NCBI RefSeq assembly: GCF_020171845.1
Contig: NZ_JAIVAM010000009.1
Location: 124,001 to 188,000, forward strand
Direction: 5' to 3'
From: Cytobacillus kochii
GTDB lineage: Bacteria; Bacillota; Bacilli; Bacillales; Cytobacillaceae
DNA length: 64,000 nucleotides
In this document: positions 49,591 to 60,620 of the stretch, piece after piece
Position numbering within the stretch: position 1 is the first letter of the stretch
Layout of the letters: the number at the start of each line of letters is the position of its first letter
Notes under the pieces: model-generated
The model's database searches: none
The model's input: only the letters and a program-made list of their open reading frames with translations
What the model was told of the DNA's origin: nothing
Program-made: the position numbers and the translations under genes

Positions 49591-49819
49591 AGTTAAGTGC
49601 CTCCTGCTGATGTGAAATATTTCTGAAACTTTGGAATATATGATGTATTGTAAGTGCTTTTTCGCTGTAAAGCAATACTTTTTCAGAAAAATGTTATTTT
49701 TATATAATTTTCTAATAGATGAACTTATTATTGGCTATTATGAACCTCTGAACGGGGCAGAACATAATTTGGTATTATATGTTGTCAGAAGAAAAATAAA
49801 TAAAGGGAGGTAAGTGTTT

Positions 49820-50587
49820 ATGACCATTATTATTCAGTCACAGGAGAAGCCCCCTATTCATTCATTTAGTCCTATACAACAAGATATTTATAGAGCGCTT
49901 GATTCTTCACCACAGCAATTTTTTTATGATTCTGCTTTTGTTTTTGAATTTGAGCTACTATTAAGAGAAAAACTAATTCAAGCCGCTTACCAATTACATG
50001 AAAGTAAAGCAGAGTTCGCTCCATTTGATGTATCAAGATTTAATCCTCAGATTTGGACAAAAACGAAGTACGGTTATGTATTAAAACCATATATATTACC
50101 CTCGGATGCGATAATGGACGTGTTTCATAATAGCCACTTATATGCATTTGAATGTTCTACAGCTATTGTATTGTTATTTTATAAATCAGTATTGGATTCG
50201 ATTTCGATTAGTCGATTTAACACGTTATTTCAAGGTCTTTTAGTTTGGGATTGGAATTATGATCAAGACTTAGGTATAGATACACGGATAGGAAGAGATT
50301 TCATACCAGGAGATGTTGTTTACTTTTATAATCCCGATTTCGAACATCCAATATGGACGGGAGAAAATGCAGTCTATTTAGGTAATGACCGATACTTTGG
50401 ACACGGAGTAGGATTGGAAAGTGAGAGAGGGATGATAGAAGCATTGAATACGCTAAGAAAGCCAGGATCGACACAGGATGCGTATCTTATTTCACAACAT
50501 AGTCGCTTAAGTTACAAATACCTTTCACAATTTGCACGTAGAGTACCACATCAGAATTACGATTCTTCTATTTTCCAATTACTTTAA
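49820..50587 (+). CDS. tgl: Spore coat protein-glutamine gamma-glutamyltransferase Tgl
   Basis: 255 residues from the ATG at 49820 (GGGAGG site, 9 nt). Catalytic cysteine C112 in 'LYAFECSTAIVLLFYKS', Glu182 in 'IWTGENAVYLG' and His195 in 'DRYFGHGVGLE' correspond to C116, E187 and H200 of B. subtilis Tgl. Tgl introduces epsilon-(gamma-glutamyl)lysine cross-links in coat proteins such as GerQ after coat assembly. It is followed on the same strand, 95 bp later, by a MurE paralogue. No clear sigma-K promoter was found. Confidence 0.95.
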   Translation: MTIIIQSQEKPPIHSFSPIQQDIYRALDSSPQQFFYDSAFVFEFELLLREKLIQAAYQLHESKAEFAPFDVSRFNPQIWTKTKYGYVLKPYILPSDAIMDVFHNSHLYAFECSTAIVLLFYKSVLDSISISRFNTLFQGLLVWDWNYDQDLGIDTRIGRDFIPGDVVYFYNPDFEHPIWTGENAVYLGNDRYFGHGVGLESERGMIEALNTLRKPGSTQDAYLISQHSRLSYKYLSQFARRVPHQNYDSSIFQLL

Positions 50588-50682
50588 TAGTAATACTTAA
50601 TATGTCTCATAAAGGCATATTTTTTTTGTTCGTGGGCATACAAAAAATAGTAACTTTATTGGTGCCTTAAGGAGTTTTTTAT

Positions 50683-52125
50683 ATGAAATTAATTGATGTA
50701 TTTAACTTATTACAAACGGACTTAAAAGAAAGTGATCATGAACTAGTGAAAGGTTTAACAACAGATTCAAGGAAAGTAAAAGGAGGATATTTATTTATTG
50801 CCATTTCCGGTTTTGAAAAGGATGGGCATAAATATATAGAAGAAGCAATTAAAAATGGAGCGATTGCTGTGATAGGGGAAAAGCGATTATCGCTCACTGT
50901 TCCATATATTACAGTTCGGGATTCTAGAAAAACATTAGGCATTTTAGCAAGCATATTTTATGCGCACCCCAGCAAAAAACATCGCTTAATTGGGATAACG
51001 GGCACAAATGGTAAAACAACTACAGCTTATCTCATCCACCATCTCCTGAAAGAAGCAGGGTATTCTTGTGGAATGATAGGCACGATAGAAAATAATATTA
51101 ATAACCAAACAAAAAAAGCTAAAAATACAACTCCAGACGCATTAGAACTACAATCTTTATTAGCCGAAAGTAGGGATGATTTTATCATACTAGAAATTTC
51201 ATCCCATGCACTCCATCAACATCGTACAGAAGGATTACAGCTTGATATAGCTATTTTTACAAATTTAACTCATGACCATATGGATTATCATCATACGATT
51301 GAAGAGTATTACAGCGAGAAAAAGAAAATCTTTTCTCTACTAAAAGATGAAGGTGTTGGATTAGTAAACATTGAGGATACATGGGGAGCGAAAATAGCAC
51401 TTGAGCAGGAGCATAATAAAATAAAAACAATTGGTACAACTGGGGATTATGAGTTGCAGCTCATGTTTAAAGATGCAAAATATCAGTTGAAATTATCAAA
51501 TGTTAAAAGAGATACTATTGTAGCAGATTCACCATTACCGGGGAAACATAACCTTTATAATACAGCTATCGCTATTGCTGCTTGTCTTGAATCGGGCATA
51601 TCAAAAGAGGTAATATCGCAAGGATTAATGAATTTTAGAGGAGTACCTGGTAGATGGGAGAGATTTCATAATAAGAAAGGGGCCGTATTTATTATTGATT
51701 ATGCTCATACAGAAGATGCTCTCACCTACCTTCTTCAAACAGCTAAGGAAAATAGAGCAAAAAAAATATATATGGTTTTTGGATTTCGAGGGAAAAGGGA
51801 TAAAAGCAAGAGAGTTAAAATGGTGAAGGTGGCATCTACTTATTGTCGGCAGTTTATCCTGACATCAGATGATATAAATGGGGAGAGTAAAACGGTTGTA
51901 GAAGAAGAGTTAAATAACTTAACAAAACCATTTACAAATGGGGAAGTCATTATGGATCGAACAATGGCTATAAAGAAAATGTGGGAAATAGGAGGAAGTG
52001 GTGATTGGATATTTGTTATTGGGAAGGGGCATGAGAATTACCAAGATATTTTTCACCTTCAAACGAAAAATGACATTGAAACCATCCAATATTTAATAGA
52101 ATGGGAAAAAGGTGAAGATCGTTAA
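50683..52125 (+). CDS. MurE-like Mur ligase, divergent paralogue
   Basis: 480 residues with all three Mur ligase domains: N-terminal UMP-binding ('TTDSRKVKGGYLFIAISGF'), P-loop GTNGKTT at 107-113, 'EISSHAL', 'LTHDHMDYH' and the presumed carbamylated Lys213 ('YYSEKKKIF'), then 'VPGRWERF' and 'DYAHTEDAL'. Two signature loops deviate: the DNPR box that recognises diaminopimelate is TSDDINGES (396-399 are D-D-I-N), and the usual GCGGDRD is 'GFRGKRD' (367-373). GKGHE (447-451) remains. It is located next to tgl, not in the dcw cluster, which strongly suggests it is a second Mur-type ligase with changed amino-acid specificity. Confidence 0.85.
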   Translation: MKLIDVFNLLQTDLKESDHELVKGLTTDSRKVKGGYLFIAISGFEKDGHKYIEEAIKNGAIAVIGEKRLSLTVPYITVRDSRKTLGILASIFYAHPSKKHRLIGITGTNGKTTTAYLIHHLLKEAGYSCGMIGTIENNINNQTKKAKNTTPDALELQSLLAESRDDFIILEISSHALHQHRTEGLQLDIAIFTNLTHDHMDYHHTIEEYYSEKKKIFSLLKDEGVGLVNIEDTWGAKIALEQEHNKIKTIGTTGDYELQLMFKDAKYQLKLSNVKRDTIVADSPLPGKHNLYNTAIAIAACLESGISKEVISQGLMNFRGVPGRWERFHNKKGAVFIIDYAHTEDALTYLLQTAKENRAKKIYMVFGFRGKRDKSKRVKMVKVASTYCRQFILTSDDINGESKTVVEEELNNLTKPFTNGEVIMDRTMAIKKMWEIGGSGDWIFVIGKGHENYQDIFHLQTKNDIETIQYLIEWEKGEDR

Positions 52126-53449: not shown

Positions 53450-53986
53450 ATGATGATGATGGAAGTTTTTTTAAACCTATCCGTTGAAACACTGTATTTG
53501 TATGCGTTGATTATCTCAGGAGTACTAATTATTCTTTTATTCTTTTTTGGGGATGTATTAGGTGGAATAGAGGAGGCTAGCCCTTTTCTTAATCCAATAT
53601 TAATACTTGCCTTTATCGTCTTTTTATCAGCAAGTGGTTATTTATTTGAAGTATTAACTTCGTTGAATAGTATTCCCATTGCATTAATCTCTGTAATTAT
53701 TGCCTTTATTTTTTCCGTACTATTAAATGTGTTTATACTTGTTCCAATGTCATCTGCTGAAGAATCGCTTGTCTATTCAGAAGACTCGTTAAGGGGACGG
53801 GTAGGAGTTATTATCATACCAATCCCAGAAAAGGGCTATGGTGAAGTATTGATTGAGAGCTATTCAGGTAGAATTTCTAAAACAGCTGAAAGCCTTAATG
53901 GGCAGGCAATCGCTAATGGCGAAAAAGTATTAGTCATTGAGGTAAAAGAAAGTCGAGTCATTGTTACGACACATGAACAGATATAA
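53450..53986 (+). CDS. yuaF: NfeD-like membrane protein YuaF
   Basis: 178 residues. The start is one of four consecutive ATGs (53450, 53453, 53456, 53459), with AAGG just upstream. Three or four helices ('LYALIISGVLIILLFFFGDV', 'FLNPILILAFIVFLSASGYL', 'ALISVIIAFIFSVLLNVFIL') precede a C-terminal OB-fold NfeD domain ('SLRGRVGVIIIPIPEKGYGE', 'VLVIEVKESRVIVTTHEQI'). In B. subtilis YuaF works with the flotillin FloT (YuaG) in functional membrane microdomains. It is 14 bp upstream of floT. Confidence 0.9.
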   Translation: MMMMEVFLNLSVETLYLYALIISGVLIILLFFFGDVLGGIEEASPFLNPILILAFIVFLSASGYLFEVLTSLNSIPIALISVIIAFIFSVLLNVFILVPMSSAEESLVYSEDSLRGRVGVIIIPIPEKGYGEVLIESYSGRISKTAESLNGQAIANGEKVLVIEVKESRVIVTTHEQI

Positions 53987-54000
53987 AGGAGGAGAAACCT

Positions 54001-55521
54001 ATGCTTTTAATATGGATTGTTATAGGAATTGTAGCGGTTTTAATTGTTGCGCTATTAGGAATTTTTGTTACGAAATATCGTACTGCTGGACCAGATGAAG
54101 CTTTAATTGTGACAGGTAGTTACTTGGGCAATAAGAATGTACATGTAGATGAAGCAGGTAATCGTATTAAAATTATTCGTGGTGGAGGAGCGTTTGTATT
54201 ACCTGTTTTCCAGCAAGCAGAGCCTCTTAGCTTATTATCAAGCAAATTAGAAGTCTCAACTCCAGAAGTATATACAGAACAGGGTGTACCTGTTATGGCA
54301 GATGGAACGGCTATTATTAAGATTGGTGGCTCGATTGGTGAAATTGCGACTGCGGCAGAACAATTCTTAGGAAAAACGAAAGAAGATCGTGAAAATGAAG
54401 CGAAAGAAGTATTAGAAGGTCATTTACGCTCAATACTTGGTTCAATGACAGTAGAAGAAATTTACAAAAATCGTGATAAATTTTCACAAGAAGTTCAGCG
54501 CGTCGCTTCGCAAGACTTAGCGAAAATGGGTTTAATTATCGTTTCATTTACTATCAAAGATGTAAGAGATAAAAATGGCTATCTGGATTCATTAGGTAAA
54601 CCGAGGATTGCCCAGGTAAGAAGAGATGCAGACATTGCTACGGCAGAAGCAGAAAAAGAAACGCGAATAAAGCGAGCAGAAGCCGATAAAGATGCACAAA
54701 AAGCAGAATTAGAAAGAGCGACGGAAATCGCTGAGGCTGAAAAAGAGAATCAAATGAAAATGGCGGATTATCGTCGTGATCAAGATATCGCTAAGGCACG
54801 AGCTGACCAAGCCTATGATTTAGAAACAGCGAGAGCAAAACAAGAAGTAACAGAGCAAGAAATGCAAATTAAAATTATTGAGAGACAGAAATCGATTGAA
54901 TTAGAAGAAAAGGAAATACTACGAAGAGAAAGACAGTACGATTCCGAAGTCAAGAAAAAAGCAGACGCAGATCGTTATTCAGTGGAACAGTCAGCAGAAG
55001 CTGAAAAACGGAAACAAATTGCCCAAGCAGATGCGCATCAATATCGAATAGAATCAGAGGCGCGTGCAGAAGCAGAAAGAGTACGTGCAGATGGGTTAGC
55101 CAAAGCAGAAGCACAAAAGGCACAAGGTGAGTCAGAAGCTGAAATTATTCGCCTGAAAGGTTTAGCAGAAGCAGAAGCAAAAAGAAAAATCGCTGAGGCA
55201 TTTGAGCAGTATGGGCATGCAGCGATTATGGATATGGTTATTCAAATGTTACCAGCATACGCGAAAGAAGTGGCAAGTCCACTATCTAATATTGATAAAA
55301 TTACAGTTGTAGATACTGGTAGTGGAGCAAAAGGTGGAGCGAATAAAGTGACAGGCTATGCCACTGACCTAATGACAACAATGCAAGAATCTGTGAAGGC
55401 ATCGTCAGGCTTGGATATTAAGGAATTAATTGAAAATTTCTCAGGCAAATCTAATATTAAACAAAGCATTGAGCAATTAGGCATGGATATTAAAACGGAA
55501 AATCATAAAAAGGAAGCGTAA
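54001..55521 (+). CDS. floT: Flotillin-like protein FloT (YuaG)
   Basis: 506 residues, close to B. subtilis FloT. An N-terminal membrane anchor ('LIWIVIGIVAVLIVALLGIF') is followed by the SPFH/PHB domain ('PDEALIVTGSYLG', 'RIIRGGGAFVLPVFQQAEPL', 'MGLIIVSFTIKDVRDKNGYL'), then about 230 residues of charged alanine/glutamate-rich coiled coil with flotillin EA repeats ('ADIATAEAEKETRIKRAEAD'). The C-terminal part has 'MVIQMLPAYAKEVASPLSNI'. Scaffold of lipid-ordered membrane domains. Operon yuaF-floT as in B. subtilis. Confidence 0.94.
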   Translation: MLLIWIVIGIVAVLIVALLGIFVTKYRTAGPDEALIVTGSYLGNKNVHVDEAGNRIKIIRGGGAFVLPVFQQAEPLSLLSSKLEVSTPEVYTEQGVPVMADGTAIIKIGGSIGEIATAAEQFLGKTKEDRENEAKEVLEGHLRSILGSMTVEEIYKNRDKFSQEVQRVASQDLAKMGLIIVSFTIKDVRDKNGYLDSLGKPRIAQVRRDADIATAEAEKETRIKRAEADKDAQKAELERATEIAEAEKENQMKMADYRRDQDIAKARADQAYDLETARAKQEVTEQEMQIKIIERQKSIELEEKEILRRERQYDSEVKKKADADRYSVEQSAEAEKRKQIAQADAHQYRIESEARAEAERVRADGLAKAEAQKAQGESEAEIIRLKGLAEAEAKRKIAEAFEQYGHAAIMDMVIQMLPAYAKEVASPLSNIDKITVVDTGSGAKGGANKVTGYATDLMTTMQESVKASSGLDIKELIENFSGKSNIKQSIEQLGMDIKTENHKKEA

Positions 55522-59783: not shown

Positions 59784-60004
59784 TTGGTTCACATAAAATG
59801 GTCTCAGTTACGGAGATAGAGGGGGTGGACAAAAAAGGAGTGTCTCAGTATGGAGAATCACCGTTCTCAGGAGAAAAGGAAGATAGCTTCATAGGTGCAT
59901 ACATAACTAATAACCATATATATATTGTTAGATTACATTAAACATGCGCTGCATTCAGGGGATGAGAATATTAGGAACGCCGAGCAGAATGGATTTGCGC
60001 GTAT
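59784..60004. other. Intergenic stretch before array B
   Basis: A plus-strand frame of 72 codons at 59723-59941 covers the hairpin and lacks a ribosome site; I regard it as spurious. No other feature is evident. Confidence 0.45.
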
Positions 60005-60620
60005 TCAGAAGGAAAACGATGAAAGAGAGGTACGGAAAAGGGGTTAGTAAGTCACTCGGAAGGAAATCGATGAGTGAGTGCTTCGCAAAAAGGATTAGCA
60101 AGTCACTCAGAAGGAAAACGATGAAAGAGAGGTACGGAAAAGGGATTAGCAAGTCACTCAGAAGGAAAACGATGAAAGAGAGCTACGGAAAAGGGGTTAG
60201 CAAGTCACTCAGAAGGAAATCGATGAAAGAGAGGTACGGAAAAGGGGTTAGCAAGTCACTCAGAAGGAAAACGATGAAAGAGTGCTTCGCAAAAGGGATT
60301 AGCAAGTCACTCAGAAGGAAAACGATGAAAGAGAGCTACGGAAAAGGGGTTAGCAAGTCACTCAGAAGGAAAACGATGAAAGAGAGCTACGGAAAAGGGA
60401 TTAGCAAGTCACTCAGAAGGAAATCGATGAAAGAGAGCTACGGAAAAGGGGTTAGCAAGTCACTCAGAAGGAAAACGATGAATGAGTGCTTCGCAAAAAG
60501 AATTAGCAAGTCACTCAGAAGGAAACCGATGAGAGAGAGCTACAGAAAAGGGATTAGCAGTTCACTCAGTAGAAAATTGATAAATGAGTGCTTCACAAAG
60601 TAGGTTAGCAAGACATTCTT
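60005..60620. repeat. Tandem array B of 51-bp units upstream of the yjcZ pair
   Basis: Twelve units start at 60005 and every 51 bp to 60566; the first 11 are well conserved and the last is degenerate. Consensus in pieces: TCAGAAGGAAAACGATGAAA, then GAGAGCTACGGAAAAGGG, then RTTAGCAAGTCAC. Two unit types occur: GAGAGSTACGGAAAA and GAGTGCTTCGCAAAA, the second at units 2, 6 and 10 (every fourth) and also the degenerate unit 12. A plus-strand frame of 219 codons (59944-60603) is open, giving a very basic 17-residue repeat, but it has no ribosome site. Related to array A by shared blocks (see findings). Confidence 0.95.

Follow-up and report, generated by a model that had tools for sequence, protein, structure and literature searches.

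MurE2, a conserved second clade of MurE-type ligases with altered substrate-binding motifs, beside tgl in Cytobacillus kochii

A stretch of 64,000 nucleotides from Cytobacillus kochii (the whole of which is called the window here) carries a gene for a divergent Mur ligase that we name MurE2, a term of our own for the clade to which it belongs. MurE2 is a separate, conserved clade of intact paralogues that coexist with canonical murE. Judging from its residues, we see roughly an even chance that MurE2 is an active accessory ligase for the third residue of the peptidoglycan stem peptide, with a diamino acid that has no second carboxylate (L-Lys, or ornithine or diaminobutyrate) as its likeliest substrate.

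The murE2 gene and its clade

Residue counts refer to an alignment of 112 MurE2 rows (distinct sequences from loci longer than 6.5 kb, plus the window) with seven canonical rows; the MurE2 rows were picked by a profile score above 500 bits and are therefore alike by design. The gene and its mapped parts are as follows, the roles at the last two sites being those described in the excerpts of PMC3829189.

50683..52125, + strand: murE2, Mur ligase of the MurE2 clade, 480 residues, ATG start, reading frame intact, no internal stop
51001..51021, + strand: P-loop GTNGKTT, residues 107-113, ATP binding; K111 in 112 of 112 MurE2 rows
51319..51321, + strand: K213; Lys in 112 of 112 MurE2 and 7 of 7 canonical rows
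51781..51801, + strand: GFRGKRD, residues 367-373, against canonical GCGGDRD (Cys to Phe368, Gly to Arg369)
51868..51879, + strand: DDIN, residues 396-399, against DNPR; the Asn and Arg that bind the carboxylate of diaminopimelate (DAP) are Asp and Asn here
52021..52035, + strand: GKGHE, residues 447-451; E451 is the equivalent of the Glu that binds the side-chain amine

The gene has a ribosome-binding site AAGGAG at 50669-50674. Its product scores above the cut-off for Pfam Mur_ligase, Mur_ligase_M and Mur_ligase_C and is a member of the UDP-N-acetylmuramyl-tripeptide synthetase subfamily TIGR01085 (murE; 408.4 bits, cut-off 257.3). The three-domain fold, the P-loop and a Lys at the predicted carbamylation position are all present, K213 being aligned with what we take to be the Lys carbamylated in Mur ligases. 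Together with the motifs EISSHAL and DYAHTEDAL, these features agree with the full-length Mur ligase described by the first-pass annotation, which had been made from the sequence alone. An AlphaFold2 model of the protein (pLDDT 90.1, pTM 0.89) matches E. coli MurE 1e8c (Z 40.3, rmsd 2.8, 464 aligned) and S. aureus MurE 4c12 (Z 40.1, rmsd 2.9, 471 aligned), so that these are tied as the nearest solved folds to the predicted structure, which is silent on the substrate.

In the window genome the Mur ligase middle domain is matched eight times. Its other MurE, on contig C13, carries GCGGDRD and DNPR and is canonical, so that murE2 is not the only murE of the genome, in line with the divergent paralogue that had first been proposed. 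This canonical gene probably sits in the dcw cluster, because it is preceded by a reading frame resembling a penicillin-binding protein and followed, 2 kb on, by another Mur ligase. Two further ligases were read as MurF by sequence, without a family scan. The window genome has a second MurF-like gene (G000:C21:11753-13126, loci L004 and L234), and the genome nearest to it has the counterpart L235, 96% identical; the long-branch MurE2 described below is found in this same pair. A pairing of MurE2 with a second MurF was considered and rejected: only these two (G000 and G015) among 36 genomes of the genus have the second MurF, and a gene restricted to one lineage offers no general explanation of MurE2.

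A high-scoring MurE2 copy was found in 34 of 61 genomes (24/36 within the genus, 10/25 outside it), each with a second match in the canonical range, the motif of which was read in two (L001 and L068). A search for related loci gave 2. Profile A1, built from 19 members, separates the clade among 55 Mur ligases, with MurE2 proteins at 686 bits or more and the next proteins at 451 or less. With this profile 80 of 299 genomes of the order were positive, about a quarter of those sampled and spread over 34 of 117 genera, as were 16 of 299 genomes in a survey of the class, 10 of them outside the order. A tree was built by a quick method from 90 rows, which had been dereplicated at 80% identity with priority given to the window, canonical and metal-labelled rows; in it, 79 MurE2 rows split from 11 canonical rows, including the Lys-type MurE of S. 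aureus, with an SH-aLRT value of 100. The window protein lies outside the canonical clade; its branch, next to further copies from the genus, is long (0.98). A plasmid collection contained MurE2 copies in Planococcus, Cytobacillus, Peribacillus and Paenibacillus (58 matching records, most of them other MurE), and in a phage collection none of 20 of the 21 matching records was more than 40% identical to MurE2, by a comparison of identity rather than motifs. Broken murE2 copies were also observed, at L080 (genome G035) and L231 (a Planococcus glaciei plasmid); G035 additionally holds an intact plasmid-type copy, L063.

The window protein is 86% identical to its closest orthologue, MurE2 of Cytobacillus stercorigallinarum, the same sequence as in genome G015, and for this pair of genes the nonsynonymous and synonymous divergences (dN/dS) are 0.073/0.351. 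Ratios in four murE2 pairs were 0.21, 0.12, 0.07 and 0.13, the last with near-saturated dS. Such low values indicate that the protein is under selection and, together with the recurrence of the same changes over 112 rows, rule out chance or decay as their source.

Conserved residues, altered pocket and the likely substrate

The catalytic and UDP-MurNAc-dipeptide residues that were checked are, by alignment, kept in MurE2: S29, K111, E171, S174, R181, H199, K213, N293, D339 and H342 occur in all 112 rows, and R324 in all but one. The two substitutions reported by the first-pass annotation, DNPR to DDIN and GCGGDRD to GFRGKRD, are confirmed in the window and recur throughout the clade. Residue 368 is Phe in 109/112 MurE2 rows and never Cys (canonical Cys 6/7), while residue 369 is Arg in 107 and Lys in 5 (canonical Gly 7/7). 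Asp396 is present in 109 rows (canonical 7/7), Asp397 replaces the canonical Asn (7/7) in 107, and Leu or Ile replaces Pro (7/7) at position 398 in 108. Position 399, Arg in six of seven canonical rows, is Asn in 95 MurE2 rows, Asp in 10 and Arg in none. E451 is retained (108/112; canonical 7/7). Alignment column 40 is Ala in 112/112 MurE2 rows, as in S. aureus MurE, and Cys in 7/7 canonical rows. With residue 368 counted, MurE2 has Cys at neither of the two positions where the canonical rows carry it.

E. coli MurE contacts the second carboxylate of DAP through the Asn and Arg of its DNPR motif, and S. aureus MurE binds the Lys amine through Asp-406, the first residue of its DNPA motif, and Glu-460, in a site that is negative overall (PMC3829189, in excerpt). 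The window protein, with DDIN, lacks that Asn and Arg, by which meso-DAP-adding MurE is recognized. An acidic side-chain pocket is found in it, comprising the first motif Asp (D396), the KGxE-loop Glu (E451) and Asn399 where the motif Arg would be, an arrangement that bears on mechanism rather than on membership of the Lys-adding MurE. Because the residues binding the distal DAP carboxylate are replaced, the simplest interpretation is that MurE2 uses a different amino acid, and this part of the first-pass proposal stands. MurE2 would then add to UDP-MurNAc-Ala-Glu an amino acid other than meso-DAP. Its side-chain amine would be held by the retained Asp and Glu, in a pocket made more acidic by the change of Asn and Arg to Asp and Asn, like that of Lys-adding MurE. 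Since the amine-binding pair is kept, the carboxylate pair is changed with an added Asp, and a Thermotoga MurE carries DDPR, a Lys-like diamino acid is the best guess. E. coli, a DAP-type host, is killed by overexpression of S. aureus murE (PMC3829189, in excerpt), and expression of MurE2 would be expected to be conditional; the substrate, the product and this conditional expression are what we infer.

Several observations weigh against a Lys-like substrate. In S. aureus MurE, the N407A variant was inactive, so that Asn is needed as second motif residue, and A409R gained no DAP addition, which together indicate that specificity depends on more than this motif (PMC3829189, in excerpt). The MurE2 motif has no Pro, and five loci (L180, L181, L186, L194 and L195) deviate at this motif. 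The near-invariant Arg369 could hold a carboxylate. Finally, the Lys-ligase model NF010628 rejects the window protein (291.4 bits, cut-off 536).

We regard it as unlikely, if deserving of serious attention, that MurE2 is still a ligase for meso- or LL-DAP, in which Arg369 of the GFRG loop stands in for the DNPR Arg and which serves as a back-up isozyme when canonical MurE is harmed. Position 369 is Arg or Lys in every row, and its positive charge might compensate; the loss of both canonical Cys would suit an enzyme tolerant of thiol-reactive metals, and some metal islands do carry MurE2. Both canonical MurE and the window protein (444.5 bits, cut-off 373) pass the DAP-ligase model NF001126, but so does L079, which has no DNPR, and the name of the model is therefore no evidence of substrate. 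The change of Asn to Asp397, moreover, puts a negative charge where the DAP carboxylate is expected. The pocket is also independent of the host: Planococcus has Lys-type walls, and the Planococcus plasmid copies L121 and L122 share the motif. Annotated plasmid copies of MurE2 carry the name DAP ligase, an annotation that, given the residue pattern, should not be trusted.

Spore-coat and metal-resistance neighbourhoods

The region upstream of murE2 contains the following features.

49814..50587, + strand: tgl, spore-coat protein-glutamine gamma-glutamyltransferase, directly upstream of murE2 (PF20085, 4.4e-88)
50603..50628, + strand: possible tgl terminator, a short hairpin TGTCT-CATAA-AGGCA followed by a T-run, read from the sequence; weak stem, not listed by the terminator scanner
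50614..50647, + strand: promoter-like element GGCATA-N14-GGGCATACAAAAAA (general form GGCATA-N14-GGG.ATA), the chief block of upstream conservation across 18 loci from two genera

In the window's genus, 19 MurE2 loci were read with flanks, and 13 of them (12 intact and one broken, L080 of G035), which make up the whole of the window's orthologue group, have tgl immediately upstream; in the sister genus 7/7 do. None of the six other loci of the genus (L057-L060 and L063, of the plasmid type, and L062) adjoins tgl. Within the window's family the link thus holds for 20/26 MurE2 loci read, and in other families none of 22 Tgl genes has murE2 within 12 kb. Among 55 MurE2 genomes, Tgl is present in 32 and lacking in 23, and SpoIVA was matched in 49 but not in G244, G259, G418, G438, G516 and G603; G336 gave fragments only. 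A coat or tgl connection was accordingly rejected as the general role of MurE2, as the confinement of the tgl link to one family and the six genomes without a SpoIVA match make a general spore role unlikely. The spore-envelope function suggested by the first-pass annotation thus falls as a general proposal, as does linkage to tgl beyond the family, and a sporulation role is possible within it.

The specific proposal that MurE2 of this family makes a sporulation-specific precursor, in the forespore or mother cell, seems improbable to us. It draws on the position of murE2 directly 3' of tgl in both genera and on the conserved promoter-like block, which was seen in an alignment of 18 of the 19 intact tgl-linked loci (L048 was left out), would give murE2 a promoter of its own and overlaps the possible tgl terminator. 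We presume that the block resembles sporulation sigma promoters, a likeness not confirmed when ten sigma-factor regular expressions were run on 112 murE2 upstream regions against single-base shuffles, with related loci counted together. Sigma-E-like matches numbered 2 against 0.8 expected (only the window and L039), and sigma-F-like matches 1 against 0.25, with none in the upstream regions of the window's family; sigma-B-like matches, at 7 against 1.2 among ten patterns tried, are a lead. No sigma-F consensus was found in PMC3789829 or PMC3174212. The loci away from tgl, within the genus and in other families, and the genomes without SpoIVA count further against the proposal. A precedent would be Bacillus sphaericus, in which the vegetative wall and the cortex differ in the third residue, a difference for which the literature matches listed gave no support. 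One group within the genus (L044-L049 and kin) also has an inverted repeat, GGGTGAAT...ATTCACCC, 5' of the promoter-like block between tgl and murE2.

Some copies lie in a different setting. Of the eleven best plasmid records, seven were read with flanks of at least 7 kb (H1, H2, H5, H6, H8, H10 and H11) and H9, a broken murE2 copy, at 3 kb; H3, H4 and H7 were left out. Metal-related genes stand near murE2 in 8/8, which amount to five island types (H5/H6, H10/H11 and H2/H9 being one each). Depending on the record, they encode the YdhK family (DUF1541), a four-helix copper-binding protein, a heavy-metal P-type ATPase, DUF305, a ZIP transporter, a metal-ABC binding protein, a multicopper oxidase or MerR. 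Envelope genes beside these copies include lgt and those for lipoteichoic acid (LTA) synthase, penicillin-binding protein 2, a rod-shape protein and a DD-carboxypeptidase. The Cytobacillus plasmids pBO1 and p1 (L123, L233) and L057-L060 and L063 share lgt, murE2 and genes for a ferric-reductase-like protein, a C39 peptidase, LTA synthase and a metal-ABC binding protein; the two annotated plasmids additionally carry sigma/anti-sigma, YdhK, copper-binding protein and SpoIIP genes, a metal island loaded with envelope genes.

In 80 genomes not selected for plasmids, DUF1541 genes lay within 12 kb of murE2 in 5/59 cases against 0.35 expected (P 3e-5) and DUF326 genes in 3/60 against 0.36 (P 0.006; none within 5 kb), by a Poisson test that was post hoc, the plasmid islands having already been seen, that treated genomes as independent and of one size, and whose gene counts were collapsed by hand from domain matches. 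These cases come from seven genomes, one of which (G377) is a single-contig chromosome. None of eight metal markers occurred in twenty random control regions, a number too small to fix a rate, and CcdA/TlpA- or MerR-like hits fell in 3/20. By a lax marker list, metal-island markers occur at 20/113 MurE2 loci (two locus pairs being the same place) and are lacking at 93/113, the window's locus included, and the idea that a metal link characterizes the clade as a whole was rejected. In the tree, metal-associated copies are scattered: the 16 of 78 labelled rows so marked cluster weakly (13 changes, with shuffles as low in 37/500), and at least 7 of the 13 changes are forced by starred branches.

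We speculate, with little confidence, that MurE2 could be an alternative precursor branch that sustains wall synthesis under thiol-reactive metal stress, dispensing with the two Cys positions of canonical DAP-type Bacillota MurE and with meso-DAP, and that it was repeatedly recruited to copper, zinc or mercury islands with envelope genes; DapF, the meso-DAP epimerase, is a Cys-based enzyme. Such a link, even for some copies, would make peptidoglycan synthesis a target protected by metal-resistance elements.

The other option of the first-pass annotation, a substrate outside peptidoglycan such as a peptide-like metabolite or another nucleotide sugar, is very doubtful and was found unnecessary, since the checked UDP-MurNAc-dipeptide residues, with the DSR-type, NTTP and SSHxxxQxR residues largely retained, are conserved, even though Mur-type ligases do make other products (cyanophycin synthetase, pseudomurein ligases and coenzyme F430 synthase are among the weaker MurE2 matches) and no constant partner gene was seen except in the window's family and in the plasmid type, in neighbours that were compared but not all annotated.

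Three side observations are recorded here. Loci L069-L071 and L073 (G014, G029, G007 and G018) hold another divergent MurE-like ligase, with neither DYAHT nor GKGHE, beside conserved small genes; in G007 and G018 an asparagine-synthase-cluster protein lies 3' of it and in G018 an ATP-grasp protein 5', which looks like a peptide-metabolite cluster. Near murE2 in the window (53450-55521), a gene for a 178-residue membrane protein without a family match is followed by floT (flotillin), and at 60005-60576 a 51-bp tandem repeat of 11.2 copies is read through by the open reading frame 59944-60603.

Comparison with known systems

Wall chemistry and crosslinking are set by the third residue of the stem peptide, which is usually regarded as fixed for a given species. 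That a second, conserved MurE whose pocket differs is so frequent in the order suggests that many Gram-positives may, in some condition, change from one wall precursor to another or combine them, a trait invisible in databases because automatic annotation names both enzymes DAP ligase. No report of a MurE2-type paralogue was found among the matches listed from the open-licence literature, within which this real and conserved protein is apparently unstudied. The 'second murE' of Streptomycetaceae is, according to the excerpts of PMC7601586, a different and shorter DUF1727 protein.

With DAP-adding MurE (E. coli 1e8c, the dcw MurE of Bacillus), MurE2 has in common the fold, the ATP site, the position of the carbamylation Lys and the UDP-MurNAc-dipeptide residues; it differs in DD[LI]N for DNPR and GFRG for GCGG, in lying away from the canonical locus, in being an extra copy and in forming a separate clade. 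Lys-adding S. aureus MurE 4c12 likewise has no DNPR Arg (DNPA) and an acidic pocket, yet it groups with canonical MurE in the tree and has KT rather than KR after GERD and Ala at the column of residue 369. Thermotoga MurE 4bub, named a Lys ligase in the PDB, has DDPR and shares with MurE2 the two Asp at the first motif positions. A parallel of another kind is Lit2, a copper-inducible lipoprotein transacylase of Listeria copper-resistance operons (PMC7387801, in excerpt), which is also an extra envelope enzyme in a mobile copper locus. Lit2 acts on lipoproteins and was tested experimentally, whereas MurE2 is predicted to act on peptidoglycan precursors, and most of its copies lie outside metal loci.
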